Origin: Sphingomonas panacisoli
Lineage (GTDB): Bacteria; Pseudomonadota; Alphaproteobacteria; Sphingomonadales; Sphingomonadaceae
Length of the DNA stretch: 64,000 nucleotides
NCBI RefSeq assembly: GCF_007859635.1
Contig: NZ_CP042306.1
Location: 2,480,001-2,544,000, forward strand
Reading direction: 5' to 3'
Of this stretch, positions 30,417 through 47,033 are shown piece by piece (position 1 is the stretch's first letter; every line of letters begins with the position of its first letter). The notes below the pieces were generated by a model. The model did not search any database. It was not told the origin of the DNA and worked only from the letters and a program-made list of their open reading frames with translations. The position numbers and the translations under genes are program-made.

Positions 30417-30438
30417 TGGTGCGCCTACAGGACTCGAA
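30417..30438. other. left attachment site, duplicated tRNA-Thr 3' end
   Basis: Read on the minus strand this is the T-loop, T-stem and acceptor end of the tRNA-Thr at 50921-50996, including the encoded CCA, with one G of the acceptor stem missing. It is not part of a complete tRNA here. It lies ten bases after the ABC-F stop. A CGGGGGTAT box (rc of 30492-30500) nearby resembles the repeated boxes at the integrase end. Confidence 0.85.
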
Positions 30439-30548: not shown

Positions 30549-31253
30549 TCACATCATCCACCTTTCAAGTCGCGCTTTACGATCGCGCCAATCTGGCATT
30601 CGTGCGCCGAGCAACGCCTCGAAGGCGGGTCCGTGATGATGATACGTCAGATGACAAAGCTCGTGGACGATGACGAAGTCAATCGCATCGACGTCAGCCT
30701 CAACCAGCCTGCGATTGAGTATGAGAGAGCGCCCGCTTGCCGACAAACTACCCCATCTCTTCTCCATAGGCCGCACGATTAGGCGTGGACGTAGGCCCGA
30801 GCCGTGCTTGGCCCAGCACGCATCAAAGCGCACTTCCATGATGCGGCGCGCTTCGCGTTGATACCAGTTGATCAGTCGATTCCTGATGCGGCTTGTTTCG
30901 TCAGTAGAGATACCGCCAACCTCAATGTGATCGCGCGTCAGCACAACCCCGCGTGCGGCATTAGGACTTACCAGCAGGCGATACTGACGGCCTAGATAGC
31001 GATGAGACTCACCTGCAACGTAATGCCGCTCGGGGGTCCGAGGCCGGAAACGGTCGAAGTCTCGAATGGACTTGAGTATCCAGGCGCCCCGCCTTTTGAG
31101 ACGTTCTTCGATTACGGCGAGGGAAGTGCCTCTTGGAGCAGCAACAGTAAGCGCACCGCTCGGCTGCACAGAGATCCCGAGAGTGCGCCTTCCACTATAG
31201 GAGACCGTATAGGGGATGTCGGTCGCACCGAGCAGAACAACCCCGTTGATCAT
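30549..31253 (-). CDS. YgjP-type metallopeptidase (DUF45/M48-like)
   Basis: The 234-residue reading starts at ATG 31253, overlapping the hsdR stop by four bases. The zinc motif is HELCHLTYHHHGPAFEALL (HExxH plus a third histidine) near residue 196, preceded by the family motif KRWGSLSASGRSLILNRRL and RRIMEVRFDACWAKHG. This matches the YgjP/WSS-like group whose activity is largely uncharacterised. It is the last gene of the restriction operon; close coupling to hsdR suggests a role in controlling or processing the restriction complex (inference). Confidence 0.88.
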   Translation of the reverse strand: MINGVVLLGATDIPYTVSYSGRRTLGISVQPSGALTVAAPRGTSLAVIEERLKRRGAWILKSIRDFDRFRPRTPERHYVAGESHRYLGRQYRLLVSPNAARGVVLTRDHIEVGGISTDETSRIRNRLINWYQREARRIMEVRFDACWAKHGSGLRPRLIVRPMEKRWGSLSASGRSLILNRRLVEADVDAIDFVIVHELCHLTYHHHGPAFEALLGARMPDWRDRKARLERWMM

Positions 31254-34200
31254 CTCGGGAGCTGTCTGCGGGCAACAGCAATGATGCGATCGGCAATCTC
31301 GTCCATCGCCGCAGCATCCAAGCCCCAAATCCCACGGCGATCACGAACGCGATCGTAGAGAATATCGTCTATGCCGGCGCGCATCGCGTTCTGCGGGCCA
31401 ATGTCGTCTTGCCAACCGACCCGGCACTCCGCTCGCACCGCGGCAGTGATCGAAGACGTTACGTCGGTGGCGATGTGGTCAACGTCATCGCCCGCCAATG
31501 GCAAGAGTGCCTCTCGTAGGATTCTCCACACGGCGCCGGCAAAATCGTCGCCACGCACTGCCTCGGGCAAATCCTCCGATGCCTTTACGCCGACGATCTC
31601 ATCCCTGACCGCCGTCACGCGGGCAAGATAGTCTGCTTCGCTGAGACGGCCAGCGCGAAACTCCTCGATTGCTTCAGCGACAATCGCGGAGAAGCGCTTG
31701 TAGCGAATGGGATCCTCACCCATCCGCTCGTTGATTGTGCGCGCCGTCGCACTTGCGATGGCATCGGCAACCGAGGCCGAGCCGCCAGTCGCCTCTTCCA
31801 CTGCCTGCTTGAATACCGTCTCATCAAAAATGTCGACGGGCGGCACCAGCTCGATCATCCCGGCCGTCGTGATATGCTGGTCAAGCAGCTTTCGAATGCG
31901 AGCTTGATATTCTCGAGCGTCGTAATCGTCCGTATCGTCCGCATAACGGCGCGCCACGGCGCGGCGAAGAGACTCGAACCGCTTGAGATCGTCTTTATAG
32001 CCCCGGATCGTGCGCTCTGGGGTGCGATCGACCCAGTCTTGCGACGTGAAAGCCGACTGCAGGGCGCTGGCGAACGCCCGAAGGCGTTCATAAAAGTCGC
32101 GCCGGATCAGGTCTTCCGCGAGTAGCAGTTCGTAGGCTTCTTGGTCAGCCGCGTTCTCGATGCCCTTGAACAGGTCGAGCAACGCGGCGTGCGTGTCTGG
32201 CAGTCTCTCGGTTTCTTCGCGGATTGAAACCAGCGCTTGGGCAACATCGCCTTCGTCATAGTCAGCGAACGCCTGATAGCTCGTGAGCGCCTTGTCGAGT
32301 TCCCCGAGCACGCCTGCATAATCGACGATGTGGCCGTGCGTCTTCTCCGCTTCGTCGTCCTGATAAAGCCGGTTCACGCGCGCGATCGCCTGGAGCAGAC
32401 CATGCTCCTTCAGCGACTTGGCGAGATAGAGGACGCGATTGCGTGGCGCATCGAAGCCGGTCAGCAGCTTGTCGACCACGATTAGGATGTCGGGGCCCTT
32501 GCCAGCCTTGAAGCCCTGAATAACGAAACGTTCGAAGGTCTTCAGATCGCCATGCAGCGCTTTAGCCTGCCTGATGTGCGCACGAACGATGTCGTCATCC
32601 TCGTCGGCCACCTCGTCGTGACCCTCGCGATCGTCGATGTCGGAGATGATGACCTCGGCCGTGACATCCCCGAAACCCTTGATCAGCTGTTTCAGCAGGA
32701 CCGCCTCGCGCTTGCCCCGCGCCACCAACTGCCCGCGAAAGGGCGTTCCCTGCCAGTTGCGCGCGAAATCTTCGGATACATCGAAAGCGACCTCCCTCAG
32801 CCAAGGGGTCGCACCCAGAACTTCGTTCGCGCGACCCATGCGGTGCTTGAGATCGGTTTTCTGATCGTCGGTCAAAGCCTTGGTGACGCGCTCGAACCAG
32901 CGATCGAGGCCGTCTTGCTCGACGTCCATATCGACGTGCCGGCCCTCATAGAGCAACGGCACTACGGCTTTGTCGCGAACCGCCTCGTCGATTTTGTAGC
33001 TGTGGATCAAACCGCCGAAGGTCGTGAAGGTCGAACGCTCGCGCTTCAACAGCGGCGTGCCGGTGAAGCCGATATAGCAGGCCCGCGGAAAGATTGCGCG
33101 CATCTGCCGATGCATGCTCTCGTCGTCGGTAACCGTCTGGCTGCGATGGCTTTCGTCGACCAGCAGGAAAACATCGGGGTCCTCGTCGCGTAACCCGCCG
33201 CGCTCGACGAGACTGCGGAATTTGTGGATCAGCGTCGTGATGATGTCCGTCCGGGCGCGGATCAAACGCCCGAGATCTGCGCCGCTGTCCGCCTGGACCA
33301 CTTCTTTGCCGGTGTCCTTGAACGTGTCGCGGATCTGAATGTCGAGATCGGTGCGGTCGGTGACAAGCACGATCCGGGCGTTGGGCACGGCGCGAATGAT
33401 CTCGCCGGCCAGCATCACCATCGTCAGCGACTTACCCGATCCCTGCGTGTGCCAGATCACGCCGCCGCGGCGCCGATCAGCTTCGTCCCGCGTCTTGAGG
33501 CGGTCGATCGCTCGGCGGACGCCGAAATACTGTTGGTAGCGGGGGACTTTCTTGTCGCCAGCATCGAACAGCGTGTAGCCCCGCGCAATGTCGAGGAGGC
33601 GGGTAGGCCCGCAAAGCGAGACGAGCAACCTATCCAGCGGTGTCGGCTGACGACCGCCGCCATGCTCCATCAGCTTTTCGTGCCGGCGCCGGTGGATCGA
33701 GAAGTCGGCGAAGATCGCGGACGATGTCTCGATCGCGAGACCGGCATTGACGGTGCCGTGAATTACAGCCTCGATGATCTCATGTTCGCGCCACAATGCC
33801 CAGAACTGTGCCGCCGTGCCCGTCGTGGCGAAGCGCGGGTCCGACGGGTTAGCGGCGATGAGCAACTGTGCACTGGCGAACAGCCGCGGGATTTCGGTTG
33901 GGCCCTGATTGCGCAGCTGCTGGCTGATGCCCTGCTCGGTGCCGACAACTGAAGATTTGACTTCGATCACGGCGAAAGGGATGCCGTTGACGAACAGCAC
34001 GATGTCCGGCCGCCGCGTATCCGCCGCGCCCTCGCGCTGGACCGGGAACTCGGCGGTCATGTGGAAGAGGTTGGCGGCGGGATCGTCCCAGTCGACGAAG
34101 CGAAGCTGACGCCCGCGCGCGATTGCTTCGCCGCGCTCGTTCGCCAGCGTCACGTCGACCGAGGTGCCGAGCCGGAGCAGGTCGGTCACCGCCGCGTTGG

Positions 34201-34489
34201 CGCCGAGCAGCCCCTTGCCCTGATCGGCGATGGCGAGCGACAACCGCCGGATCGCTACCTGCGCGGCGGCACCGGGCAGCGCGTGGCGGGCATTGCCCTG
34301 GCGGAGCGGATTGAGCGCGTGGAGGCGCTCGGCGAGCACATCCTCGAGCAATGTCTCGGCCAGCCGCCCCCGCCGCTGCGCCTCGCCCTCGGCGCGCGTG
34401 AGATAGCGCCAGCCGAGACCGGCGAGCGTGTGCAGCGCCTGAAGCTGGACCCCGCCGGCCTCGGAGGTGGCGAAGTCCGGCGAAGTCAT
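31250..34489 (-). CDS. hsdR: type I restriction endonuclease R subunit
   Basis: The 1079-residue motor-nuclease subunit has an N-terminal PD-(D/E)XK nuclease (RRPDIVLFVNGIPFAVIEVKSS, about residues 175-195). Superfamily 2 translocase motifs follow: Walker A WHTQGSGKSLTM, DESH box LLVDESHRSQ, motif III GFTGTPL, and helicase C-terminal motifs VDKLLTGFDAPRNR and QAIARVNRLYQ. A helical C-terminal part docks onto the methylase. ATG 34489 overlaps the hsdS stop by four bases; the frame upstream of it is shadow. All key motifs are intact. Confidence 0.96.
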   Translation of the reverse strand: MTSPDFATSEAGGVQLQALHTLAGLGWRYLTRAEGEAQRRGRLAETLLEDVLAERLHALNPLRQGNARHALPGAAAQVAIRRLSLAIADQGKGLLGANAAVTDLLRLGTSVDVTLANERGEAIARGRQLRFVDWDDPAANLFHMTAEFPVQREGAADTRRPDIVLFVNGIPFAVIEVKSSVVGTEQGISQQLRNQGPTEIPRLFASAQLLIAANPSDPRFATTGTAAQFWALWREHEIIEAVIHGTVNAGLAIETSSAIFADFSIHRRRHEKLMEHGGGRQPTPLDRLLVSLCGPTRLLDIARGYTLFDAGDKKVPRYQQYFGVRRAIDRLKTRDEADRRRGGVIWHTQGSGKSLTMVMLAGEIIRAVPNARIVLVTDRTDLDIQIRDTFKDTGKEVVQADSGADLGRLIRARTDIITTLIHKFRSLVERGGLRDEDPDVFLLVDESHRSQTVTDDESMHRQMRAIFPRACYIGFTGTPLLKRERSTFTTFGGLIHSYKIDEAVRDKAVVPLLYEGRHVDMDVEQDGLDRWFERVTKALTDDQKTDLKHRMGRANEVLGATPWLREVAFDVSEDFARNWQGTPFRGQLVARGKREAVLLKQLIKGFGDVTAEVIISDIDDREGHDEVADEDDDIVRAHIRQAKALHGDLKTFERFVIQGFKAGKGPDILIVVDKLLTGFDAPRNRVLYLAKSLKEHGLLQAIARVNRLYQDDEAEKTHGHIVDYAGVLGELDKALTSYQAFADYDEGDVAQALVSIREETERLPDTHAALLDLFKGIENAADQEAYELLLAEDLIRRDFYERLRAFASALQSAFTSQDWVDRTPERTIRGYKDDLKRFESLRRAVARRYADDTDDYDAREYQARIRKLLDQHITTAGMIELVPPVDIFDETVFKQAVEEATGGSASVADAIASATARTINERMGEDPIRYKRFSAIVAEAIEEFRAGRLSEADYLARVTAVRDEIVGVKASEDLPEAVRGDDFAGAVWRILREALLPLAGDDVDHIATDVTSSITAAVRAECRVGWQDDIGPQNAMRAGIDDILYDRVRDRRGIWGLDAAAMDEIADRIIAVARRQLPR

Positions 34490-35673
34490 TCGGCGGTCTC
34501 CGCGAGGCGGTCGGCGGCGGGGCCGCCGGGGGCGAAGGAGTCGCCGCCCGCGGGGATGCGCCATTCGCCGGTGAGGAGCTTGTGCATCAGGCCATGCTTT
34601 TGTCGGCGGAGGAGAGTGATTTGACTTTCTGCCGTCCGCGCCTCGGACAGGCAAGTCTCTACAAGTGACGCGAGCATTGCCGTCTCTGCGCTGTCCGACG
34701 GCAATATGACCCTTCCTTGAAGGAACTGGGTATTTGTGACCGCGATCGTGTTCTTGGCGCCTTTCTGCACAAGTGGCGTCAGATAGCGGAGCGTAGCATC
34801 TGGACTCGCGAAGTAAGCATCAAGAAGAATGCCAAGCTCGCGAGAGGCGGGCGTGAACACGCCGTAGAGTGGCGAAACGATCACGGCTCGTTCGACCTTG
34901 CTCTGTTTGATGATGCCGAGGGGGAAGTCTCCTGTCGGGCTCTTCGTGTAAACAATATCGCCCGGTCGCACGAGGTTGTAATGCTCAGTGCTCGCTGCTG
35001 CGAACGAGCGGCCAAGGTGCTCGACCTGGTCGATAAGCCCGCGATGGACGGAGACTGAGAATACCGACTCGGCGCCTGTGCTTGTTGTGCGGTGCTCATG
35101 TAGTACTCGCGAGAGTGGGGTGGCCGCCCAAGCTTGAGCGCAGCCGAGTAGGCGTACGCGTCCGGTCAAGACCGCGCTTTGCACCCAAACAAAGCGATCT
35201 TGTCGCGTGGCTACCAGCCTCTCGGCGACGGCCACGGCGTCATCCCATGCTTCGAGCACCGCCGCAACTCGCGCCTGCTCTGCGATCATGGGCGTATACG
35301 GAACTCTCGCTTCCCTCAACTCTTTGAAATGACGGGCATAGCCGAGACTGCTGATTCGGCCCGCCGCGTATTCGATGAGCGCGGAGAGATAACGCGGGTT
35401 CTGATCGCCGGCTGGTTCCAGGACTTTCGTTCCGTCTGCGCCGACGACGAACGGGAAGGTGATGAACTTAACTTCGCGCGTGTGATCGCCGAAAACCGTT
35501 ACTGGGAGGCGGCAAGGGAGAGTTGGAGCATCGCAATACCCGCAGATCAGCTTCTTGCCCTGATCGACAATGGGATGTGCTCCTTCGGCGCGATACTGAT
35601 CCGTGGTGACCTGATAGCCGCGCACATTCACGCTGTTCACAAGCGATCCTAGTTCCGGGAGATCAGCAAACAA
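34486..35673 (-). CDS. hsdS: type I restriction specificity subunit, full length
   Basis: The 395-residue S subunit has two target-recognition domains, each followed by a helical spacer: MIAEQARVAAVLEAWDDAVAVAERLVATRQ (about 130-160) and AMLASLVETCLSEARTAESQITLLRRQKHGLMHKLLTGEWRI (near the C-terminus). It sets the bipartite DNA site of the methylase and nuclease. The likely start is TTG 35673, overlapping hsdM by 11 bases. Recognition-domain sequence looks less GC-biased than its neighbours, as is common for recombining hsdS genes. Confidence 0.92.
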   Translation of the reverse strand: MFADLPELGSLVNSVNVRGYQVTTDQYRAEGAHPIVDQGKKLICGYCDAPTLPCRLPVTVFGDHTREVKFITFPFVVGADGTKVLEPAGDQNPRYLSALIEYAAGRISSLGYARHFKELREARVPYTPMIAEQARVAAVLEAWDDAVAVAERLVATRQDRFVWVQSAVLTGRVRLLGCAQAWAATPLSRVLHEHRTTSTGAESVFSVSVHRGLIDQVEHLGRSFAAASTEHYNLVRPGDIVYTKSPTGDFPLGIIKQSKVERAVIVSPLYGVFTPASRELGILLDAYFASPDATLRYLTPLVQKGAKNTIAVTNTQFLQGRVILPSDSAETAMLASLVETCLSEARTAESQITLLRRQKHGLMHKLLTGEWRIPAGGDSFAPGGPAADRLAETAE

Positions 35674-37216
35674 CGCCCAGCTCCCGCAGATACGCCTTCA
35701 TCTTCACCCGCGTCTCCGCGAGCTGCGCCTCAAGCGCCTCGATCTCGGCCTGCACCGCGGCCACGTCGATCTCCTTCTCTGCCTCGAACGTGTCGACATA
35801 GCGCGGGATGTTGAGGTTGTAGCCGTTTCCCTTGATCTGCGCGCGCTCCACCACCGCAGCGTAGCGTTCGACCTCCCCGCGCGCACGCCAAGCGCTAACG
35901 ATGCGATCAAGTTGCTCGGGGCCCAACTGGTTCTGCTTTTTGCCCGGAATAAAGTCGCGGCTTGCGTCGATGAACAGTACATCATCTACGCCCTCGCGCG
36001 CGCCACCCTTCTCCCGCGCGCGGTCGAAGATTAGCATGACGACTGGAATGCCCGTCGAAGGGAACAGCTGCGCCGGCAGACCGACGATGCCGTCGAGTAG
36101 GTTCTCCTCGATCAGCTTCTCGCGAATACGCCCCTCTGCGCCGCCGCGGAACAGCACGCCGTGCGGCGCGATCACCGCCACCCTGCCCTCACGCGGCTTC
36201 GCCGCCTCGATCATGTGGCTGATGAACGCATAGTCGCCGCGCCCTTTGGGCGGGACGCCGCGGTGGAAGCGGCGCCAGCGATCGTTCTCGGCATTCTCCG
36301 CACCCCATTTGTCGAGGCTGAACGGCGGGTTGGCGACGACGAGGTCGAAGCGCATCAGCGCATCACCGTCGATCAGTTTGGGGTTGTTGAGCGTGTCGCC
36401 CCATTCGATCTTCGCGTCGTCCAGCCCGTGGAGGAACATGTTCATCCGCGCGAGGCCTTGCGTCTGCCGGGTCGCCTCCTGCCCGAACAGTTTGACGTCC
36501 GCGCGTGCGGTCTCAACACCTTGGATGTGCGCGACATACTCGGCAGCGCGGATCAGCAGCGTCGACGAGCCGCACGCGGGATCGCAGATCTTGCTACCGG
36601 GCTGCGGGTCAGCGAGCCGCACGAGCAGCTCCGAGACTTTGCGCGGCGTGAAGAACTCGCCGGCTTTCTTGCCCGCGTCCGACGCGAACTGGCTGATCAG
36701 GTAGATATAGGTCTCGCCGATGGCATCCTCTGCCTTATGCTCGCCCTCGAACCGCGACGGGCTGAAGTCGAGTTCTGGCTTGGCAAAATCGACGAACAGA
36801 TTCTTCAGTCGCCGGTTTCGATCGGCCGTCTCGCCCAGATTGTTGGTCGAGTTGAAATCGATGTTGGTAAGCACCCCGGCGAGCTTGGCGCGGTTGGCCT
36901 CCTCGATCGCTTGAAGCGCGATGTTGATGAGCTCGCCCAGATTGTCGGCGTTGCGTTGCGCGTAAACCGCCTGGAAGGTGGTCTCTTTGGTCAGATTGAA
37001 CCGCTCAAACCGCAGCTTGCGGGCGACCCGCTCCGCATCGCCGCCGAACTCGCGCTCGTAAGCCTTCTTGTGGTCCAGCCACAGGTCCGAGACGTACTTC
37101 CAGAACAGGAAGATGAGGATGTAATCCTTGTATTGTGCGGGATCGACAACGCCTCGGAAGGTGTCGCAGGCCTTCCACGCTGCATCGTTGAGGGCCTTTT
37201 GTTCTACAGCGTGCAT
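35663..37216 (-). CDS. hsdM: type I restriction DNA methyltransferase M subunit
   Basis: The 517-residue adenine methylase starts at ATG 37216 after GGAGGT. It has an N-terminal helical domain (WKACDTFRGVVDPAQYKDYIL), SAM motif I CDPACGSSTLLIRAAE and catalytic motif IV VVANPPFS, with a C-terminal coiled coil (IEALEAQLAETRVKMKAYLREL) that meets HsdS. Motif I reads GSS where I would expect GSG, a possible weakening of SAM binding. It overlaps the half-S gene before it (13 bases) and hsdS after it (11 bases). Confidence 0.95.
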   Translation of the reverse strand: MHAVEQKALNDAAWKACDTFRGVVDPAQYKDYILIFLFWKYVSDLWLDHKKAYEREFGGDAERVARKLRFERFNLTKETTFQAVYAQRNADNLGELINIALQAIEEANRAKLAGVLTNIDFNSTNNLGETADRNRRLKNLFVDFAKPELDFSPSRFEGEHKAEDAIGETYIYLISQFASDAGKKAGEFFTPRKVSELLVRLADPQPGSKICDPACGSSTLLIRAAEYVAHIQGVETARADVKLFGQEATRQTQGLARMNMFLHGLDDAKIEWGDTLNNPKLIDGDALMRFDLVVANPPFSLDKWGAENAENDRWRRFHRGVPPKGRGDYAFISHMIEAAKPREGRVAVIAPHGVLFRGGAEGRIREKLIEENLLDGIVGLPAQLFPSTGIPVVMLIFDRAREKGGAREGVDDVLFIDASRDFIPGKKQNQLGPEQLDRIVSAWRARGEVERYAAVVERAQIKGNGYNLNIPRYVDTFEAEKEIDVAAVQAEIEALEAQLAETRVKMKAYLRELGVVC

Positions 37217-37779
37217 ATTCTTGCACCTCCGGTTGAATGTCGATGGACGATGGCGATCAGTTTGGCTTGGAGCGATGTCACTCTGAGCGTTGCAAGACGT
37301 GACGACAGCTGCGCTTCTTCGACCGCGAGCGTCGCCAGCGCTCCGATCCGCCTTTGCGTGGACAGCGGAGGGATGCGGATGGGTAGCGACCGCAAAGCCG
37401 GAAGCGGCAAGCGAGCCACGGCTCCGCCCGTGCGGTCTCCAGCCAGTGCGACTTGGCTCTCTGGAAGATTGATGAACCACGCGAGATAGCCCGGATCCAA
37501 CAGGTCGGAGGGTCGAAGCACTGCAAGTTCCAGCGTCGCGAATAAGGGCTTGGAGAACGTCGTCGAAACCGCCACCGCGGCGTTCACCGGGCCTCGCATA
37601 GTCACCAAGACATCGCCGACCCGAACTTCCGCATCTGTACCGGACCGTGTCGGCGCCATTCCCGCTTCAAGCGCCGAATCGGACAGGAATCCCCTCGACA
37701 CCGATCGCGGCGTGGCAAACAATGCGTCGTCGCCAGGCCGCTTAACTGAACCACTTCTGATCTGAACCAGCTCGCCCAT
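37204..37779 (-). CDS. half-size type I specificity-like protein (single recognition domain)
   Basis: The 191-residue product has one HsdS-type unit: a recognition domain with VRVGDVLVTMRGPVNAAVA and LDPGYLAWFINLPESQ, then the conserved LPLPALRSLPIRIPPLSTQRRIGALATLAVEEAQL leading to a helical spacer. That is half of a normal S subunit. ATG 37779 lies only about three bases after a predicted transcription start, so the mRNA may be leaderless. It is first in the operon and overlaps hsdM by 13 bases. It could dimerise to form a second specificity or belong to the divergent SNF2 system. Confidence 0.82.
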   Translation of the reverse strand: MGELVQIRSGSVKRPGDDALFATPRSVSRGFLSDSALEAGMAPTRSGTDAEVRVGDVLVTMRGPVNAAVAVSTTFSKPLFATLELAVLRPSDLLDPGYLAWFINLPESQVALAGDRTGGAVARLPLPALRSLPIRIPPLSTQRRIGALATLAVEEAQLSSRLATLRVTSLQAKLIAIVHRHSTGGARICTL

Positions 37780-37966: not shown

Positions 37967-40900
37967 ATGTTCGCGCCGGGCACGATTGTAAGGCTTCGCA
38001 ATGACCCTGCTTGCGCGGGACACATAACGGGTGTTTCGACCGAGCGGAGCGGCCGCCGCTATCACGAGGTGCAACTTGCGGATGGGAGCGGGAAACAAAC
38101 ATTTCCAGAAAGTCAGCTAGTTGCGGCCAGCGGCCCCGCCGATCCTCTCAGTGACCTCGAAGCGCAACGCTTCGCTGATCCAAATCTGTTGCGGCGAATG
38201 CTGCTCCATAAACGGCTGACTGGTCGCCTGCGCGACGTCATCTACAGCATGGACGTCACGGACACCGAATTTCACGCTTATCAGTTCAAACCCGTCGTAA
38301 AGCTGCTCGCGTCCCCGGCGCAGGGTCTGCTGATCGCCGACGAGGTCGGCTTGGGCAAAACGATCGAAGCCGGCCTCATCTGGACCGAACTCGTCGCGCG
38401 GTTCGATTGCCACCGCTTGCTCGTCGTCTGTCCGAAATCGCTCACGGAAAAATGGCGGCTCGAACTCTGGCAGAAGTTCTCAGTCGACGCGAAGGTCGTC
38501 GATGCGTCGGAGCTTCTCAACTATCTCAAGCGGGACGGCGAACAGTCCGACGGGTTTGCGCTGATTGTGTCGCTGTCCTCCGTGCGTCCCCCTCGGGGAT
38601 GGCAAGACGAAGGAGACAGCGCCCGCGCCAAGCTCAGCCGTTTCCTCGCGGACCAACAAGGCCAGGATCCGCTATTCGACTGCATCATTTTCGACGAAGC
38701 CCATCATCTGCGCAACGCTGAGACAATGAACCACGCCTTTGCCAGCGCGGCGATGGATGTAGCGGACTATAAGCTGCTGTTGAGCGCGACGCCCATCAAT
38801 TTGCGCAGTGAGGACTTGCGCAACCTGCTGGCCCTGCTCGATCCTGATACGTTCGGTAACGCTTATACATTCGAGCTTCTCGCCGAGGAAAACAGGCCCT
38901 TGGTCGCCGCGCGCGAGCTCGCACTCCGCCCGCGCACACCGTTCTCAGAATTGAAGCAGGCATTGGACGACATGCCGCGCGGGTCACTGCTGAAAATCGA
39001 CCGGCAGCTTGAAAACCTGCAACGCGAACTGGCCGATCCCGATCTCGTCGACAATAGCACGGTCAGAACCCGCATCGCCGCGCAACTCGAAGAGATGTCC
39101 CTGCTGGGTTCGGTGGTCAATCGCACGCGCCGTCGCGACGTGAACGAGTTGCAGGTCAAGCGAGAGGTCGACCTTCTGCGCTGGCACATGAGTGATGAAG
39201 AGCGAACCTTCTACGACGACGCATCGGATGTGGTGCGCGCGCATGCTTGGTCGATACCGGCCGCCGAACGCTTCTTGCTCGCGACGCCCCAGCGGTTGAT
39301 TGCCTCTTCGCTCGCGGCAGCCTGTCGACACTGGGCACGTCGGGCGGCGGATTTGTCAATGGACGACCCAGATGATGCTGTGGACGCGGCGGGCCCGCTC
39401 GTGGCCAAGTTGGGAGTCCTTTGCAATGATCCGGCGCGTTTGGCTGCGCTGGAGGCCAGCGACACGAAATTCGAACGTCTGGTTAAGGCAATCAGCGATC
39501 AAAGAGCCGCTGGCGACTCGAAGCTTATCATCTTCTCGAGCTTCCGCGTGACGCTCGACTATCTGGCAGACAGGTTGCGCGAAAGCGGTTCAGCCTTTGA
39601 GCTGATGCACGGCGGCGTAGTCGAAGATCGTACGGAAATACTGGCACGCTTTGCCGCACGGGAGGACGCATGCGTCCTGTTGACGTCCGAAGTTGGTGGC
39701 GAAGGTCTCGACATGCAGTTTTGTCGCGCGCTGATCAATTACGACCTCCCTTGGAACCCGATGAAGGTCGAGCAGCGCATCGGTCGTATCGACCGCATTG
39801 GCCAAGGTGCTGCGAAGATAACGATCCTGTCCTTGATTGCCGCCGACACGATCGAGGAGCAAGTCTACCAACGTCTATACAGGCGGCTCCTCGTGATCGA
39901 GCAAACGCTGGGTGCATTCGAATCGATACTGGGCAACGAGATACAGACCCTAGAGCAGCGTTTGCTTGACCCTGAATTGACGCCGTCGCAGCGGGAGGAG
40001 GAGGTGTCTCGTCGGGCGATGGCAATCGAGGAGCGTCATCGTCAGACAATGGCGCTCGAAGAGGAAGCGCCTGGGCTAATCGCCCACGGCGACATGATTT
40101 TAGCGCAGATCGCCGAGAGTCATCGCCCCGAGAGGAGAGTCGGTGCTGAGGAACTGGCCGACTATGTTCACGAGGCGATAGCCGGCCGCTTCCCCGGCAG
40201 CGAGATCGTGGATGCTCCCGACATGCCGGGCCTTTACGACGTGAGATTAAGCGACGCGGCGCATTTGGCGCTCAAGCGCATCTTAATTCGCGGGGGAAGA
40301 TTCCGCACCCGGCTCACGCGCGAGACACGTATACGTGCCGCTTTCGAACGCAAGCCGGGGCTGCCCAAATCGATCGAACTTGTAACCACGGTGCACGCTC
40401 TGGTTAGGCTTGCGGCGACCTTGCGAAAGGAAGCTGCACAAGGCGTTGCTTCAGTCCCCGTCGTAAACGTCACACTACCGTCGGATACGATGGACGTCCC
40501 GGATGGGGTGTATGTCGTTTGTGTGGAGCATTGGATGGTCGACGGAGCCGTGCGGGTCGATCGCATCGCCTATGGTGCGCGAATGGTGGGTGGGTCTGCT
40601 CTCGACGCCATCGTCGCCGAACAGATGTTGCAAGTCGCCTTGGCAACAGGGCGACCCGGCATCAACGTATCGCCCGATTTGCTTACTGACGTGGACAAAT
40701 TGCGGGACGATCTGAAGGCAGCGTTTGAAGCTTTTGTGGATGACGAGGAAGCTCGTCACCTTGACCGAGCAGAAACCGGCATTGCTCGACTTGAGCGGCA
40801 ACATGAAAAGCGGGTGCGCGATTCAGAGGCCAAGCTGTGGAATTGGAAGTTGAGCGGAGACTCAAAGAAGCTTCGCCTCATCCCCGCAGAACAAGGCAAG

Positions 40901-41014
40901 CTGAATAAGCTGCTTGCACGCCTAGATCATCGGCGAGATGAGCTGGTAGCCGTTCGCGACCGCTTTTCGTTTCAACCGGACTTGGTCGGAATAGCGATTG
41001 TAGCGATCGGATAG
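37967..41014 (+). CDS. SNF2-family helicase/translocase (RapA- or DrmD-like)
   Basis: This 1015-residue protein begins with a small beta domain (MFAPGTIVRLRNDPACAGHI), then a complete SNF2 ATPase: Walker A ADEVGLGKTIEAGLIW (about 127), DEAH box IIFDEAHHLRNAE (about 243), LLLSATPINLRSEDL, and C-terminal helicase motifs LLTSEVGGEGLDMQFC and VEQRIGRIDRIGQ (about 603). The last 350 residues are a helical domain unique to this type. SNF2 translocases move along duplex DNA and remodel complexes. It is followed seven bases later by an ASKHA ATPase, so the two form a probable system. Confidence 0.9.
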   Translation: MFAPGTIVRLRNDPACAGHITGVSTERSGRRYHEVQLADGSGKQTFPESQLVAASGPADPLSDLEAQRFADPNLLRRMLLHKRLTGRLRDVIYSMDVTDTEFHAYQFKPVVKLLASPAQGLLIADEVGLGKTIEAGLIWTELVARFDCHRLLVVCPKSLTEKWRLELWQKFSVDAKVVDASELLNYLKRDGEQSDGFALIVSLSSVRPPRGWQDEGDSARAKLSRFLADQQGQDPLFDCIIFDEAHHLRNAETMNHAFASAAMDVADYKLLLSATPINLRSEDLRNLLALLDPDTFGNAYTFELLAEENRPLVAARELALRPRTPFSELKQALDDMPRGSLLKIDRQLENLQRELADPDLVDNSTVRTRIAAQLEEMSLLGSVVNRTRRRDVNELQVKREVDLLRWHMSDEERTFYDDASDVVRAHAWSIPAAERFLLATPQRLIASSLAAACRHWARRAADLSMDDPDDAVDAAGPLVAKLGVLCNDPARLAALEASDTKFERLVKAISDQRAAGDSKLIIFSSFRVTLDYLADRLRESGSAFELMHGGVVEDRTEILARFAAREDACVLLTSEVGGEGLDMQFCRALINYDLPWNPMKVEQRIGRIDRIGQGAAKITILSLIAADTIEEQVYQRLYRRLLVIEQTLGAFESILGNEIQTLEQRLLDPELTPSQREEEVSRRAMAIEERHRQTMALEEEAPGLIAHGDMILAQIAESHRPERRVGAEELADYVHEAIAGRFPGSEIVDAPDMPGLYDVRLSDAAHLALKRILIRGGRFRTRLTRETRIRAAFERKPGLPKSIELVTTVHALVRLAATLRKEAAQGVASVPVVNVTLPSDTMDVPDGVYVVCVEHWMVDGAVRVDRIAYGARMVGGSALDAIVAEQMLQVALATGRPGINVSPDLLTDVDKLRDDLKAAFEAFVDDEEARHLDRAETGIARLERQHEKRVRDSEAKLWNWKLSGDSKKLRLIPAEQGKLNKLLARLDHRRDELVAVRDRFSFQPDLVGIAIVAIG

Positions 41015-41021
41015 GGCGAAC

Positions 41022-42665
41022 ATGCCGAAAAATCGTGGCAGGGCAACGTTAGGGGACGGAAAGGCAGGCAATATGCTTGCCCAGCTTTTGAAGAATATGA
41101 CCTCGCCGGAGACTCCTACGCCATCAAGTTCCGGCAGCACTGCAAAGGCCGCGCCTTCTGCAGTGTCCGACGATCTCGGCGCAGCGATGACGCATGCTGC
41201 GCGTGTTGTTCCTCCGCCTGCGAGGCAGGCAAGGGCGGCAATAAGCAATGCTAAGGCTAGGAAGAAAGAGATAGTCAGACTTCCGCGGCATATCTCCGAG
41301 CAGATCCAACGGGAAACAGCCTTGCCGGTCCGCACGGATGGCACCACGATAGAGCCGGCATCGGTCAGCGATTTGGGCGCCGCCGCCTATAGGCGAATTT
41401 CTAACTTGCGCTCTTCACTCTCGTCACTCATCTCGGACACGCGCGCGCCTAAGACGGTGGATGCGGAAACGCGCGAAACGATAGTGCAATGCATCGCACT
41501 CGGCGCTGCCGTCAACGTGGCAATCTGTGATCCTGACGCAGACGGATATGTCGGACACGACTTTGGCACCAGCACGACGAAGGCTATCGTTCGCTGGCCT
41601 TACGACCGATCTGCGGGAGCCTTTGCAGTTCCCGTTCCCGCTGGCTGGTGCAGCGGCAACGTTCCGCACCTATGGCCAACGGTGGTCTACTTCGATCCGG
41701 CTTCGCGTGCCTTTGCTCCACTTCCAGGAGAGGGGCTGGTTGCTCTGACCGGATTCAAATCGGCGTTGATCGAGGGGCAAGGCCATCGGATGTGCTGCGG
41801 CAGCGTCGTTTCAATGGCCGATGCGGCGACCGCGTTTATCACGCTGCATTTGGCCTACGTGCTGGGGGCAATTGCACAAACTCGCCCGGACGCCGGGATA
41901 AGTGTGATCAACGTCGGTGTTCCGGTGGCAGCTCTTGCGGACCAAAAGATCTCCTCAATGTTCGGCAATGTTACTCGAGCTGCGGCAGTGCTCCTGGGCG
42001 TGGCTCCGGCGCTGACGCTTGACGATGTTCACGCAGCCCTTGCGACATCAGATCAAGGTTCGATCCAGTTCGAGCTGCACACCGAGCTTAGCGGTGCAAT
42101 CGCCGGCTACTGTGCCGGCCCGCGGCCTTACCAAGGAGCGCACGTTATCGTCGATTGCGGGTCCGCTACCTTAGACATCGCAAGTTTTCACCTAGGAAAT
42201 GGGCCTTGGCCGATCGGCATTTATGCGGCCGAGGTTGGGCCTCTTGGGGCGGATGCGTGCGTTGCTTATCAAGCTGCCGGTGCTGGAGAAGACGACTGCC
42301 GAGGTGCCGTTCGATTTCAAGAGCATCGCGTCTATGCAGACACATTGGAGTTTGCACGAAGCGGATTTAGCCAAGACGATGATCGGCGTTACGCTTATCA
42401 GGTGATCATGGTCGGCGGCGGAATTGATGGGCCGATCCACCGATCGTTGTTCGATGACATGGCTGCTTCATTTCAACGCCCATTCTTTCGGCCTGAGCTT
42501 GATCGCGGGTTGCTGCGCGATGCCGGGGCGAGCGAAGGTCGGCTGGTCCTAGCTGATGGATTAGCCCGCTCGCCGATCGAACTACGGGAAGTTGCCATGC
42601 CCGGCGATCGTCCGCCGCCACAGCCTCACAGCGGGCCTGAGATGATCTCTAAAGACCAAGTTTAA
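41022..42665 (+). CDS. Hsp70/actin-fold (ASKHA) ATPase of unknown role
   Basis: The 547-residue protein has a low-complexity N-terminus of about 120 residues (Ser/Pro/Ala-rich), then an actin/Hsp70-type ATPase core: phosphate-1 loop GHDFGTSTTKAIVRWP (about 178), phosphate-2 loop VIVDCGSATLDIASF (about 375) and adenosine motif VMVGGGIDGP-like segment IMVGGGIDGPIH (about 464). No peptide-binding domain of DnaK is recognisable. Its pairing with the SNF2 gene (gap of seven bases) suggests it senses or loads something for that motor. I do not recognise a named family. Confidence 0.78.
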   Translation: MPKNRGRATLGDGKAGNMLAQLLKNMTSPETPTPSSSGSTAKAAPSAVSDDLGAAMTHAARVVPPPARQARAAISNAKARKKEIVRLPRHISEQIQRETALPVRTDGTTIEPASVSDLGAAAYRRISNLRSSLSSLISDTRAPKTVDAETRETIVQCIALGAAVNVAICDPDADGYVGHDFGTSTTKAIVRWPYDRSAGAFAVPVPAGWCSGNVPHLWPTVVYFDPASRAFAPLPGEGLVALTGFKSALIEGQGHRMCCGSVVSMADAATAFITLHLAYVLGAIAQTRPDAGISVINVGVPVAALADQKISSMFGNVTRAAAVLLGVAPALTLDDVHAALATSDQGSIQFELHTELSGAIAGYCAGPRPYQGAHVIVDCGSATLDIASFHLGNGPWPIGIYAAEVGPLGADACVAYQAAGAGEDDCRGAVRFQEHRVYADTLEFARSGFSQDDDRRYAYQVIMVGGGIDGPIHRSLFDDMAASFQRPFFRPELDRGLLRDAGASEGRLVLADGLARSPIELREVAMPGDRPPPQPHSGPEMISKDQV

Positions 42666-43082
42666 TCTATCTCATCCGCATGTCGGTGGTTGACCGAAGG
42701 CGGAGGATGGCTCGAAGCGATCGAGCCCCGCCGTTTAGGCACGACCCGGATAACCGAGTTCGGCAAAAGTGTAGGACTTCGTTCTTCTGTCCGGTCACGG
42801 ACCTAGCCTTTTCAAAATCCTCGGCGACACCGGCACGATCGTATCGACAGTTGACGACGGGCCCGACCCGCTAGATGCTTGAGTCCATGATCGTGCGCGC
42901 GACCAGATCGACCTTCTCTCACTGCTTCCCGCAAGCACCGATGTCGTGCGCTTTTTATTTGCGCATCGCCGCCAATCACCCTCGCGCCCAGGCTGCGCCA
43001 TAGTCGGACCCCCGCTCCACCCGACCATGCCCCGCAGCCCCGTCGAGCCCTCGATGGGGCTTTTTCATACCCGGAACCGACC
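42666..43082 (+). other. 417-base gap between ASKHA gene and hen1; possible leader RNA
   Basis: No reading frame here looks like a gene. It has a perfect stem GGCTCGA (42709-42715)/TCGAGCC (42721-42727) soon after the ASKHA stop, several smaller hairpins (TGCTT/AAGCA; GTCGG/CCGAC) between about 42920 and 43030, and a strong intrinsic terminator at 43036-43065. The hen1 promoter is probably inside, which would make the last 150 or so bases a transcribed leader or a short RNA. Confidence 0.5.
43036..43065 (+). terminator. intrinsic terminator immediately before hen1
   Basis: AGCCCC (43036-43041) pairs with GGGGCT (43056-43061) and TCGA (43043-43046) with TCGA (43051-43054), with a G-T pair between and a four-base loop, followed by TTTTT (43061-43065). 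The hen1 ATG is at 43083. It either ends a transcript from the left or attenuates the RNA-repair operon. Confidence 0.75.
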
Positions 43083-44493
43083 ATGCTCCTGACCATCACG
43101 ACCACGCACCGGCCCGCGACCGACCTCGGGTTTCTGTTAATGAAGAACCCCGCGAACGTGCATTCGGTCGAACTCCCGTTCGGCAACGCGACCCTGTTCT
43201 ACCCTGAGGCGAACGAGGAGCGCTGCACCGCAGCCGTCACGCTCGAGATCGACCCGGTGCAGCTCGTGCGCGGCAAGGCGGGGCTGGAGGATCAGTATGT
43301 CAACGACCGCCCCTATGCGGCGTCGTCCTTGTTGTCGGTAGCTCTGGGGCGACTGGTAAACACCGCGATGGGCGGGCGGTCGAAGGATCGTCAGGAACTT
43401 GCCGATACAGCGATCCCGCTCGAAGCTGTCGTCACCCCGCTGCCTGCCCGTGGCGGACCCGATCTGATCGAACGACTGTTCGGGCCGCTCGGCTATGCCG
43501 TAGAGGCAACACCGATTGCGCTCGATCCAGTGCACCCCGACTGGGGCAACAGCCCGTATTTGGCACTACGCCTGACCGGCACCGTGCGGCTCGCCGCCCT
43601 GCTCACCCACCTTTTCGTGCTGATCCCGGTGCTTGACAATCAGAAGCACTATTACATCGGGGAGGCCGAGGTGGAGAAGCTGCTGCGCAAGGGGGGAGGG
43701 CTGGCTCGAGACGCACCCTGACCGCGAACTGATCGTGCGTCGCTACTTGCGCTTCCGCGGGCTGATGAACCGCGCCAACGCCGCGCTGGAGGACAAGGTC
43801 GAGGCCGAAGCGCCCGAGGAGGCATCGGCGCGCGATGCGGCCGAGGATGCGATCGAGAAGCCGATACGGCTCAACGACCAGCGGATGGATCTTGTTGTCG
43901 GGCTGCTCAAGGAACTTGGCGCGGCGAGCGTGCTCGATCTCGGCTGCGGCGAAGGACGCCTGCTGCGCGAACTGCTCAAAGTGCCCGGCATTCGCAAGAT
44001 CACCGGGGTCGAGGTGGCGCCGCGCGTGCTTGCGGCGGCGGGCGATCGGCTGCGGCTCGAAAGCATGCCCGACATCAAGCGCCAGCGGATCGAGTTACTG
44101 CAAGGCTCGCTCGTCTATAGTGACGATCGGCTCAAGGGATACGACGCGGCGGCGGTGGTTGAGGTGATCGAGCACATGGACGCGGAACGCCTGCCCGCGT
44201 TCGAGGCGGCACTGTTCGGCCATGCCAAGCCCGGCGCAGTGATCGTGACTACGCCGAACAGCGAATACAACGCACTTTTCGAGACGCTGCCCGCAGGCAG
44301 GTTTCGTCACAATGATCACCGTTTCGAATGGACGCGCGCCGAGTTCCGCCACTGGGCGGAAAGCGTCGCGCTGGCGCATGGCTATGCCGTGCGGTTCAAA
44401 GGCATCGGCACCGAAGACCCGACGCACGGCACGCCCACCCAGGCGGCGGTGTTCACGCGCGCCGAAGCCAGCGCGACAAGGATCGCGGCATGA
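43083..44493 (+). pseudogene. hen1: 3'-terminal RNA ribose 2'-O-methyltransferase Hen1, frameshifted in a G-run
   Basis: Two overlapping frames together give one full Hen1 of about 470 residues. The first (43083-43721) is the Hen1-N domain (MLLTITTTHRPATDLGFLL, LDNQKHYYIGEAEVEKLLRKG). The second, continuous through 44493, starts within the same codons as EGWLETHPDREL and holds the methyltransferase: DLGCGEGRLLREL, metal-binding EVIEHMD (ExxEH) and FRHNDHRFEWTR. The break is GGGGGG at 43692-43697; five Gs would restore the frame. Hen1 methylates the 2'-OH of a cleaved RNA 3' end before Pnkp seals it. It overlaps pnkp by four bases. Sequencing error or true mutation are both possible. Confidence 0.85.
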
Positions 44494-47033
44494 AAATCGA
44501 AATTCCCGAGTTCGCGCTCGTCCTGCTCGTTGGCGCTTCAGGCACCGGCAAGTCGAGCTTTGCCGCGAAGCACTTCCTGCCGACCGAGACCGTGTCGTCG
44601 GACCGGATGCGTGGCTGGGTCGCCGACGACGAAACCGATCAGGGCGCGACCAAGGATGCGTTCGAGGTGCTGCACTTCCTCGTCGAAAAGCGGCTCAAGG
44701 CACGGCGCTTCACCGTGATCGACGCGACCAACGTCCAGCCGGACGCACGCAAGGGGCTGATTGCGCTCGCGCGCAAGTGGCACGCGCTGGCGGTGGCGAT
44801 CGTGTTCGACCTGCCCGAAGCGCTCGCTGTCGCGCGCAATGCAGAGCGGCCCGACCGACAGTTCGGCGCGGGGCCGGTGCGGCGCCAGATGCTGAACCTC
44901 AAGAAGTCGATGCGCGGGATGCAGCGCGAAGGACTGCGCTACGTCCACGTCCTGCGTTCGGTCGACCAGATCGATGCGGTCGAGATCACACGCACGCGGT
45001 TGTGGAACGATCGCCGCGAGGAAACCGGCCCGTTCGACATCATCGGCGACGTTCACGGCTGCGCCGATGAACTTGAGACGCTTCTCGGCGACCTTGGCTA
45101 TACGGTCAGCTGGTCCGGCAGGGATGTCACAGTCACCCCGCCGGAGGGCCGCCGTGCGATCTTTGTCGGCGACCTGGTCGATCGCGGGCCGCGCTCGCCC
45201 GATGTGCTGAGGATCGCCCGCCACATGGTCGAGGCTGGGACAGGGCTCGCAGTGGTCGGCAACCACGACGACAAGCTCAAGCGCCATCTCGCCGGCAAGA
45301 GCGTCAAGGTCAGCCACGGCCTCGCTGAGACGATCGAGCAGCTCGCCGCCGAGCCGCCCGAGTTCGCGACGGGCGTGCGCGACTGGCTCGATGGACTGAT
45401 CAGCCATTACGTGCTTGACGGCGGTAATCTCGTCGTCGCGCACGCCGGCTTGAAAGAGGACATGCAGGGCCGAGCATCGGGCGCAGTGCGCAGCTTCTGC
45501 ATGTATGGCGAGACTACCGGCGAGATCGACGAGTTCGGCCTACCGGTGCGCTGGGACTGGGCGGCCGACTATAAGGGCAAGGCCAAGGTCGTGCACGGCC
45601 ATACCCCGGTCGTGGAAGCGAACTGGGTCAACGGCACTTTGTGCATCGACACCGGCTGCGTGTTCGGCGGCAAGCTGACTGCGTTGCGCTATCCCGAGAT
45701 GGACCTCGTCTCGGTGCCGGCGCTGCGCACCTATTACGAGCCGATCCGGCCGCTCGGCGAGCCGTCGCCCGCGACGGGCGAAAGCCAACCGCACCAGCTC
45801 GACCTGGCCGATGTGCTCGGCAAGCAGGCCATCGATACCCGCCTCTACGGCATCGTCACGGTGCGCGAGGACAATGCGGCCGCGGCGCTCGAAGTGATGA
45901 GCCGCTATGCGGTCGATCCGCGCTGGCTCATCCATCTGCCGCCGACGATGTCGCCGGCCGAAACCAGCGCGGCCGACGGCTGGCTGGAACGGCCCGAGGA
46001 AGCGTTCGCCTTTTACGGGTCGAAGGGCGTGCACGACGTCGTCGTCGAGGAAAAGCACATGGGGTCGCGTGCACTGATCGTGCTCGCGCGCAACCAGGAT
46101 GTCGCGGCGCGCCGGTTCGGCGTGGCCGATGGCGGCCGCGGCGTGATCGTCACGCGCACCGGACGCCGGTTCTTCCATGATGCCGAGCTCGAAGCCACGG
46201 CGCTCCATCGCATCGATACCGCGATGGAGACGTCCGGGCTGTGGGCCGATCTCGATACCGATTGGGTGCTGTGGGACACCGAGATTTTGCCGTGGACCAT
46301 GAAGGCAGGTTCGCTGATCCGCGATCAATATGCCGCGGTCGGTGCCGCCGCGATCACCGGGCTCGATGCGGCCTCCGCTGCGCTCGAGGCCGCGCGGGCG
46401 CGCGGTGTCGATGTCGGCACGCTGGCGGATGCGACGTCCAAGCGGCTCGAGAATGCCTTGCTCTACCGCACTGCCTATAATCGCTACGTCGCACCGTTCG
46501 CCGGCATCGACGACCTGCGTATCGCACCTTTTCATCTGCTCGCGAGCGAGAGCTCGGTGCATGACGACAAGAACCACGTCTGGCACATGGAGCGCGCGCA
46601 TCTTCTAGCAAGCGCGGACCCGGCACTGATCGTTGCGACCGAACATCGACAGATTGATCTGAACGATCCGGCTCAAGTTGCGGATGCGATCGTTTGGTGG
46701 GAAGCGCTAACCGCGGCGGGCGGCGAAGGCATGGTGGTCAAACCGCTAGACTTCGTGGCACGCGGTGGGCGCGGTCTGCTCCAGCCGGCAATCAAGTGCC
46801 GCGGTCGGGAATATCTGCGCATTATCTATGGGCCGGACTACGACCAGCCGGATAATCTGAAGCGGCTCAAGAAGCGCGGCCTCGGCCAGAAGCGTTCGAT
46901 GGCCCTGCGCGAGTTCGCGCTGGGGCTGGAAGCGCTGCATCGATTCGTTGATCACTCGCCGCTGACGCGGGTGCATCAGTGCGTATTCGGCGTACTGGCG
47001 ATGGAGAGCGAGCCGGTCGATCCGCGGCTTTAG
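44490..47033 (+). CDS. pnkp: polynucleotide kinase-phosphatase-ligase (RNA repair)
   Basis: The 847-residue three-domain enzyme starts at ATG 44490. It has an N-terminal 5'-kinase with P-loop VGASGTGKSSFA (about 12-23) and SSDRMRGWVADDE; a calcineurin-like 2',3'-phosphatase with IIGDVHGCADELE (about 186), GDLVDRGP and VVGNHDDK; and a C-terminal ligase-type domain with nucleotidyl lysine in VEEKHMGSRALI (about 522) and GEGMVVKP. With Hen1 it heals and seals RNAs cut by ribotoxins, notably tRNA. All catalytic motifs are present and the length matches the family, so this half of the system looks functional. Confidence 0.94.
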   Translation: MKIEIPEFALVLLVGASGTGKSSFAAKHFLPTETVSSDRMRGWVADDETDQGATKDAFEVLHFLVEKRLKARRFTVIDATNVQPDARKGLIALARKWHALAVAIVFDLPEALAVARNAERPDRQFGAGPVRRQMLNLKKSMRGMQREGLRYVHVLRSVDQIDAVEITRTRLWNDRREETGPFDIIGDVHGCADELETLLGDLGYTVSWSGRDVTVTPPEGRRAIFVGDLVDRGPRSPDVLRIARHMVEAGTGLAVVGNHDDKLKRHLAGKSVKVSHGLAETIEQLAAEPPEFATGVRDWLDGLISHYVLDGGNLVVAHAGLKEDMQGRASGAVRSFCMYGETTGEIDEFGLPVRWDWAADYKGKAKVVHGHTPVVEANWVNGTLCIDTGCVFGGKLTALRYPEMDLVSVPALRTYYEPIRPLGEPSPATGESQPHQLDLADVLGKQAIDTRLYGIVTVREDNAAAALEVMSRYAVDPRWLIHLPPTMSPAETSAADGWLERPEEAFAFYGSKGVHDVVVEEKHMGSRALIVLARNQDVAARRFGVADGGRGVIVTRTGRRFFHDAELEATALHRIDTAMETSGLWADLDTDWVLWDTEILPWTMKAGSLIRDQYAAVGAAAITGLDAASAALEAARARGVDVGTLADATSKRLENALLYRTAYNRYVAPFAGIDDLRIAPFHLLASESSVHDDKNHVWHMERAHLLASADPALIVATEHRQIDLNDPAQVADAIVWWEALTAAGGEGMVVKPLDFVARGGRGLLQPAIKCRGREYLRIIYGPDYDQPDNLKRLKKRGLGQKRSMALREFALGLEALHRFVDHSPLTRVHQCVFGVLAMESEPVDPRL

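Follow-up and report, generated by a model that had tools for sequence, protein, structure and literature searches.

A recurrent gene pair of a RapA-like SNF2 motor and an Hsp70-fold ATPase in a genomic island of Sphingomonas panacisoli

Gene pair and motor protein

The window, a stretch of 64,000 nucleotides of Sphingomonas panacisoli (contig NZ_CP042306.1, positions 2,480,001 to 2,544,000), contains two neighbouring genes which encode a RapA-like SNF2 motor and an ATPase with the Hsp70 (ASKHA) fold (Table 1). A sequence-only reading of this DNA had reported a motor of 1015 residues followed seven bases later by an ATPase of 547 residues, and the lengths, the coordinates and the 7-bp gap between the two open reading frames (ORFs) were all exact. 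The pair is a real recurrent module for which no name was found, probably a conflict system of the RapA-like-helicase kind in which the partner is of a new type, and its recurrence in other genomes speaks against a chance juxtaposition of two genes. RapA-like motors recur in defence, as DrmD (DISARM), BrxHII (BREX), DpdE and ArmA (ARMADA), and to our knowledge the way in which such defence motors are driven and restrained is poorly known.

The motor matched PF00176 and PF00271 in the Pfam scan, and its motifs are unbroken: GLGKT at residue 128, DEAH at 243, SATP at 273 and QRIGRIDR at 603. When the predicted model was searched with Foldseek, ranks 1-5 were all RapA with alignments of about 1000-1080 columns, and RapA is the closest whole-length solved structure. 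The SNF2 core motifs together with this whole-length similarity identify the protein as RapA-like, as had been read from the sequence. The motors of INO80 and SRCAP were among the best matches of the core, and many other SNF2 motors likewise. The chain consists of a beta-rich N-terminal domain (about 1-55), which by comparison with RapA we infer to be SH3/Tudor-like, a core (about 90-710), a C-terminal alpha/beta region and a long helical hairpin (905-998). All library matches cover the helicase core, and none indicated a separate nuclease domain.

Hsp70-fold ATPase

The predicted structure of the second protein matches the Hsp70 nucleotide-binding domain (NBD), which occupies about residues 170-530. 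The phosphate-1, phosphate-2 and adenosine motifs, said to be intact from the sequence, were found unbroken (GHDFGTSTTK at 178, DCGSATLD at 378, VGGGI at 464), so that predicted fold and motifs together place the protein among the ASKHA ATPases. The substrate-binding domain (SBD) of Hsp70 is absent: the chain stops about 17 residues past the NBD match (about 530 of 547), with no Pfam match at E 0.1. The N-terminal region (1 to about 115) is of low confidence and partly helical, with a mean predicted local distance difference test (pLDDT) score of 42-77 in the first 11 ten-residue blocks against about 90 or more in most of the core, which agrees with the disordered N-terminus proposed earlier. 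With the window protein as query there was no match in the models of Pfam, NCBIfam, PADLOC or PHROG. A sequence profile built from divergent ATPases also failed to retrieve Hsp70 from PDB, the best matches being a sugar kinase (E 0.046) and ParM (E 0.18), so the Hsp70 assignment is based on the predicted structure and the motifs.

Conservation was scored in two alignments, each with 19 family members whose identity to the window ATPase goes down to 19%. There are 23 positions invariant across 19 ATPases of all branches, including D180, T183, K187, K246, E355, D378, T383 and G465-467. By position and motif, these presumably correspond to the phosphate-1 Asp, the catalytic Lys and Glu (K70 and E171 of DnaK), the phosphate-2 motif and the adenosine loop of Hsp70. 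Invariance of the active-site positions in 19 of 19 members suggests that the family is probably active as an ATPase, unlike CnuD of the CoCoNuT systems. Both tails also carry conserved segments, [S/T]KDQV at the C-terminus (SKDQV in the window) and an LGDxKGG-like segment at the N-terminus.

Matches of the ATPase profile in three genomes (G203, G464, G655) were rejected as relatives, with 19-22 bits over an N-terminal stretch only, and BLAST with the window motor found no motor in the stretches fetched from them. By length and position these candidates look like sugar kinases.

Some family members showed unusual architectures. Two distant ATPases (L036 6505-7938 and L037 11006-12397) have cysteine-rich CxxCxG-like tails which by eye recall the zinc region of DnaJ. 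P0072 is a fusion of 853 residues with a C-terminal region of about 300 residues without Pfam match, the end of which recalls by eye HsdR-N-like domains. The Leptolyngbya ATPase (L043 5374-7605) has a long N-terminal region with a weak match to SMC coiled coils.

Recurrence of the pair

A chaperone-type ATPase lies beside the motor in 26 of 26 evaluable loci of the motor clade, the window included; 17 partners are of the Hsp70 type and 9 of the sacsin/Hsp90 type. These loci were found without using the partner gene. Near-duplicates are among them (L045/L046 and L035/L042), so about 24 are independent, and six IMG/VR contigs stand outside the count.

Lack of recurrence in other genomes had been named beforehand as an outcome which would speak against the pair, and this outcome did not arise: both genes occur in 9 of 396 genomes of the order and are adjacent in all nine. 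The search driven by the ATPase gave 10 of the 396 genomes with its close-family profile, of which G203 was a spurious short match and nine were real (G000, G035, G080, G158, G160, G169, G206, G244 and G011; the last was a partial match at first and was confirmed by an iterated profile). The search driven by the motor, at a cut-off of E 1e-100 which was our own choice, gave ten of the same genomes, namely these nine and G266, where a sacsin-type ATPase is next door. Across the phylum the motor was found in 8 of 398 genomes, five with an Hsp70-type and three with a sacsin-type partner, and in none of 14 control genomes.

Among 72,556 plasmids the motor of locus L023 gave eight matches. Six have Hsp70-type partners (Aminobacter, Shinella, Leptolyngbya, Cyanobacterium and two near-identical Sphingobium plasmids) and two have sacsin-type partners (Ensifer and the archaeon Methanomethylovorans). 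Using the archaeal motor as query gave 15 records: the 8 already known, two more Rhizobium plasmids which were counted, both sacsin-type, and five distant ones (H29-H33; 25-27% identity, E 2e-52 to 4e-43) which were left out. In the converse direction, 6 of 7 plasmid matches of a cyanobacterial ATPase (itself included) are beside a motor, and the seventh, which lies close to a transposase, is a short fragment. Of three phage records, one (L072) adds another chaperone-paired motor and two (L073, L075) end inside the motor ORF.

The Hsp70-type pairs span Alphaproteobacteria, another class of the phylum of the window and Cyanobacteriota, and further named pairs were found in Sphingobium fuliginis, Novosphingobium taihuense and Croceibacterium mercuriale. 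The motor gene precedes the ATPase gene everywhere except in Leptolyngbya, where the order is reversed with a 98-bp gap, and the spacing in the window and six annotated plasmid loci is 0-13 bp or a 4-bp overlap. Judged from source contigs of equal length, many metagenome contigs probably carry both proteins.

As the ATPase profile was extended round by round with its own hits, later scores of other members are not independent; the L043 ATPase did not enter the first profile rebuild, and its score of 187.5 bits is a fair hold-out. A protein search with the divergent ATPase alignment returned 74 proteins, nearly all already known, and missed divergent members, so it is no measure of the breadth of the family. 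In viral contigs, two scans with one or two short patterns each found no ATPase relative, and a scan with a distant motor found six weak relatives (24-29% identity) with no chaperone-type ORF in the fetched stretches.

Descent of the motor and its partners

In an IQ-TREE phylogeny of 34 motors, the 19 Hsp70-paired motors form one clade (support 99/99), the six sacsin-paired motors included form another (81/87), and both together form one group (90/94). The three DISARM DrmD proteins are separate (100/100), and the distant plasmid motors L056-L058 fall with DrmD outside the motor clade. The root is a midpoint root and the tool warns of long branches (L048 and outer rows), so the sister relation of the Hsp70-paired and sacsin-paired motors is likely but not certain. 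The simplest account is that each partner type was acquired once, or that one exchange took place between sister lineages.

When the 19 pairs of the Hsp70 type were compared, the distances between motors were strongly correlated with those between ATPases (r = 0.95; Mantel p 0.0001), and the two trees shared 11 of 16 splits. The ATPase evolves faster than the motor, with a mean distance of 0.72 against 0.57.

The sacsin-paired motors are those of L038, L039, L040, L047, L048, L055, L065, L072 and L074, among which are one from an archaeal plasmid and one from a phage contig of faecal origin. Their partners match sacsin models, and the one on the Methanomethylovorans plasmid is labelled 'molecular chaperone of HSP90 family' in its record; the sacsin-type ORF of L040 has only 325 residues. 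A GHKL (Bergerat-fold) partner occurs only in this branch, and the window partner has the Hsp70 fold. No name was found for the sacsin-type pair, in parallel to the Hsp70-type pair. Because the related branch, which the sequence-only reading had not seen, uses a sacsin/Hsp90-type ATPase, the overall design is an SNF2 motor plus a chaperone-type ATPase.

Relation to DISARM

The window motor resembles DrmD of class 1 DISARM as a RapA-like SNF2 protein of similar length, and the PADLOC model PDLC02623, which bears the DrmD name, matches it over the full length with 705 bits. It could then be asked whether the pair is a divergent or degraded DISARM, in which the motor is DrmD and the remaining operon was lost or lies elsewhere. 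The NCBIfam model for DISARM DrmD gave the window motor 383 bits and eight other motors 300-441 bits against a cut-off of 610, whereas three DrmD proteins among 249 genomes of the phylum exceeded it with 939-1326 bits, and the two kinds of motor are in separate clades of the tree. Besides DrmD, the DISARM set is a methyltransferase, DrmA, DrmB and DrmC. PF09369 (MZB domain), the marker of DrmA and DrmB, had no match in the whole genome of the window (G000), so neither protein is present there, and none of ten scanned neighbour proteins except the motor had a DISARM component as best match. The earlier statement that the other DISARM genes are absent agrees with this. Methyltransferases among the scanned proteins around the pair were HsdM and a piece of hen1, no genome-wide search for DrmM having been made.

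The MZB domain is present in all three genomes with true DrmD, twice within about 12 kb of this gene and once on another contig, but absent in 10 of 14 tested genomes with motors of the clade described here. In the other four it belongs to other gene clusters: a Dpd/Druantia-like one in G160, one beside a type IIG enzyme in G035, one on another contig in G899, and in G206 a DrmA-DrmB cluster that lacks DrmD and lies some 5-10 kb away from the pair, which is a further point in favour of DISARM. With the missed cut-off, the separate clade and the genome without MZB domain, a DISARM fragment was rejected and we consider this explanation most improbable. The window pair also differs from DISARM in its chaperone-type partner.

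The cluster in G206 (L061 8717-17791) is an unusual DISARM-like one, in which DrmA-like and DrmB-like genes are together with a NERD-UvrD protein and a protein of 736 residues; neither DrmD nor a methyltransferase was recognised in it.

The DrmD loci bear on another explanation, in which the Hsp70-fold protein serves the large motor as a dedicated chaperone during folding or assembly and takes no part in the working cycle of the motor. The Hsp70 NBD fold and the constant pairing would agree with this. But Hsp70 needs a substrate-binding domain for client folding, which the ATPase does not have, and the related motor DrmD has no Hsp70-type or sacsin-type ORF in three loci (L052-L054, of which L053 covers 7.8 kb only). 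We therefore regard a dedicated chaperone as quite improbable.

Comparison with other systems

That no named system has exactly this pair, as the sequence-only reading had stated, agrees with our searches. Database matches assigning the two proteins to an already described system had been the other outcome named beforehand as speaking against the pair, and none of the libraries gave such an assignment; the ATPase matches nothing. No description of an SNF2 motor with an Hsp70-type partner was found in the literature covered, most papers of subscription journals being outside it.

Prokaryotic MORC/paraMORC operons, which are restriction-like, combine a GHKL-type ATPase with a neighbouring superfamily II helicase, which in one group is of the SWI2/SNF2 kind (Iyer and others 2008, PMC2292703). 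The sacsin-paired branch resembles them most, judged by the text available; the window partner has the unrelated Hsp70/actin fold, and the word 'Hsp70' is absent from the main text of that paper. In CoCoNuT systems, which are of McrB/McrC type, CnuD is an Hsp70-like unit with NBD and SBD and a degenerate Walker A-like motif, and Hsp70-McrB fusions are described (PMC11090510, as far as available). Common to both is an Hsp70-like ATPase in a restriction-related setting, and McrBC adjoins the pair at some loci (see below); the window ATPase differs in that it has the NBD only, its motif residues are invariant and it is tied to an SNF2 motor. With these differences, and with no McrB or McrC among the ten scanned window neighbours (no genome-wide search was made), a CoCoNuT-type Hsp70 unit was rejected.

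An Hsp70 without peptide-binding domain is also part of the predicted conflict systems centred on GAP1-N2 GTPases (Kaur and others 2020, PMC7159879). There, in the part of the paper available, it goes with GTPases, a full Hsp70 and GrpE and not with an SNF2 motor. RapA, BrxHII and BREX-related helicases (PMC12839542) and ArmA of ARMADA (PMC12458937) share with the motor the RapA-type architecture of a TUDOR domain, the SNF2 core and C-terminal alpha/beta domains, but in the text available the helicases of those defence systems go together with YprA proteins, methyltransferases or components of BREX. The words 'chaperone' and 'DnaK' are absent from the available text of the former paper, as are 'Hsp70' and 'sacsin' from that of the latter. 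ARMADA has a YprA-family helicase with MZB domain, and the genome of the window has no PF09369 match. The SNF2 helicases in operons with DUF499 proteins of PMC3710099 resemble L056-L058; the available parts of this paper and of PMC7824862 have no bearing on the pair.

Island and neighbours in the window

An island of 20.5 kb, bounded by a 17-bp repeat and the tRNA-Thr gene, holds the pair (Table 1). The GC content of the pair is 59%, compared with 65-67% outside the island. The island position claimed from the sequence held up with the repeat of the tRNA-Thr 3' end, the integrase pieces and the relative G1127 (L059; 93% identical at Uup), in which the aligned flanks are only about 230 bp apart. 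In another relative (G360, L060) the same gap is filled by about 17 kb of other DNA. In both relatives tRNA-Thr is absent at the island site (window 50921-51256) and the adjoining tRNA-Gly is inverted, so the history of the site includes rearrangement. The integrase is split over two ORFs, and the island may therefore no longer move by itself.

The restriction operon described as divergent from the pair is of type I, with all three genes on the minus strand at 31250-37480. Downstream, hen1 lies in two ORFs, 43083-43721 (a Hen1_L part of 212 residues) and 43735-44493 (a methyltransferase part of 252 residues), which may reflect a frameshift, a sequencing error or a true split. It is followed by a full-length pnkp (ORF 44328-47033, family match from about 44490). 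The terminator-like hairpin before hen1 is one of 5 in the stretch, compared with a mean of 5.2 in shuffled sequence.

Table 1. Features of the gene pair and of the surrounding island, in window coordinates
Feature	Position	Strand	Basis
RapA-like SNF2 motor, 1015 aa	37967..41014	+	start ATG; ORF call and library matches
Hsp70-fold (ASKHA) ATPase, 547 aa	41022..42665	+	start ATG; ORF call and predicted structure
17-bp direct repeat, left end of island, copy of tRNA-Thr 3' end	30422..30438	+	
HsdR, type I restriction, neighbour in island	31250..34654	-	library match
HsdS-like specificity subunit, neighbour in island	34486..35673	-	library match
HsdM, type I methyltransferase, divergent from motor gene	35663..37480	-	library match
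Terminator-like hairpin between pair and hen1	43036..43061	+	consensus match only
RNA repair genes hen1 and pnkp, island neighbours outside the pair	43083..47033	+	
Tyrosine integrase, arm-DNA-binding part, separate ORF	49465..49797	+	PF13356
Tyrosine integrase, core and catalytic part, separate ORF	49851..50687	+	PF22022, PF00589
tRNA-Thr (CGT), right end of island, holding the second repeat copy (50927-50943)	50921..50996	-	

Neighbours at other loci

Neighbours were compared at 25 loci, which include L002-L004 (found via the ATPase) and omit L046, L065, L072 and L074, and were assigned to families according to the annotated members with which they clustered. In this comparison the ATPase of L016 escaped the simple gene caller, and it was placed by other searches. 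A TM0106 nuclease-helicase is near the pair in 6 of the 25 loci (L036 holds a further weak relative), McrBC and a WYL regulator in 4 each, and DUF2779 and the PADLOC candidate PDC-S68 in 3 each. Hachiman (L041), Dpd-like genes (G160) and ABC-three-component genes (L055) were each found at a single locus, and PLD-like proteins in L036 and L045. It had been suggested to check whether neighbours are defence genes, and at some loci they are: McrBC, TM0106, restriction, Hachiman or Dpd-like genes.

All four loci with McrBC (L004, L022, L037, L041) have motor, Hsp70-fold ATPase, McrB, McrC and the TM0106 RecB-like nuclease-helicase on the same strand, in four gene orders. These clusters could mean that the pair is half of a five-gene restriction system with McrBC and TM0106, other loci being incomplete or having substitutes. 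It is distinctly unlikely, as McrBC and TM0106 are limited to the few loci counted above and are not among the scanned neighbours in the window.

Another explanation is that the pair is a stability or counter-defence module of mobile elements, whose motor and switch would protect or remodel the element's own DNA or transcription complexes instead of attacking phages. The location on an island and plasmids, the ParA/ParB partition and mobilisation genes beside the pair in the two near-identical Sphingobium plasmids, and the closeness of the motor to RapA, a recycling factor of RNA polymerase, agree with it. The same-strand clusters with McrBC and TM0106 nucleases in four loci and the several defence families beside the pair in genome contigs fit defence better, and we judge such a module unlikely.

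Interpretation and possible mechanism

Judged from the neighbours and the mobility, a defence function, probably anti-phage, is likely. Our preferred reading, which we hold tentatively and at somewhat below an even chance, is that the two genes are one functional unit, in which a RapA-like motor and an Hsp70-fold ATP-dependent switch or clamp act on foreign DNA in genome conflict. RapA-like motors pump along double-stranded DNA and displace bound material. A bare Hsp70 NBD cannot grip a client peptide in the usual manner but is able to open and close with ATP, like Hsp110 and actin-related proteins (Arps) when acting on a partner. Constant pairing, conserved tails and parallel descent make a motor with an ATP-driven switch the most economical reading.

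The Hsp70-fold subunit would be such a switch or clamp, gating the motor, and not a general chaperone, and it may dock on the motor via its C-terminal [S/T]KDQV and N-terminal LGDxKGG-like tails. The assembly would translocate along foreign DNA as it enters or replicates, and would strip off or stall the protein complexes bound to it. Alternatively, because no nuclease domain was matched in either protein, DNA may be handed over to nucleases encoded nearby, such as McrBC, the TM0106 nuclease-helicase or type I restriction; or no nuclease at all may take part. Foreign DNA as the target is suggested by the gene context. In the related branch the switch subunit would be the sacsin/Hsp90-type ATPase, and this use of another ATP-driven conformational switch argues that switching is needed and not one fold.

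Several points weigh against the proposal of a switch-driven unit acting on foreign DNA. Correlated trees are expected from adjacency and shared descent and are no proof of contact. Library scans recognised no nuclease or toxin domain in either protein, so the killing step would need an outside source, and nuclease neighbours differ from locus to locus. No defence gene was recognised in 8 of the 25 loci (L002, L019, L038-L040, L042-L044), where most neighbours were unscanned, and the neighbour counts stand without a random-locus baseline. The setting of the Sphingobium plasmids fits plasmid upkeep or counter-defence equally. The motor model has a pLDDT of 78, which is moderate confidence. Three of the five distant plasmid motors were fetched (L056-L058) and have no chaperone-type neighbour but DUF499/DUF1156 or other genes; with them the pairing would be 26 of 29, and the branch which shuts them out has a support (90/94) below the star of the tree tool.

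Eukaryotic SWI/SNF, INO80 and SWR1 remodellers carry actin and Arp subunits, and like the window pair they join an SNF2 motor to a dedicated actin/Hsp70-fold subunit, although only the shared fold links Arps to the window ATPase. A further and more doubtful proposal is that the pair is a prokaryotic 'remodeller', an SNF2 motor run by an actin/Hsp70-fold subunit, which would be an independent counterpart of SWI/SNF and INO80 with their Arps used in genome conflict, Hsp70-type and Hsp90-type folds having been recruited as interchangeable switches of one motor lineage.

For annotation, the ATPase family is a gap, without an entry in the four libraries searched with the window protein, and PDLC02623 scores motors outside DISARM high under the label DrmD, so calls resting on this model alone could mislead. 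A minimal two-gene motor with a single ATPase switch could be dissected biochemically, and the fact that one motor lineage has partners of either the Hsp70 or the Hsp90 type suggests that there is a general rule, which is open to a census.

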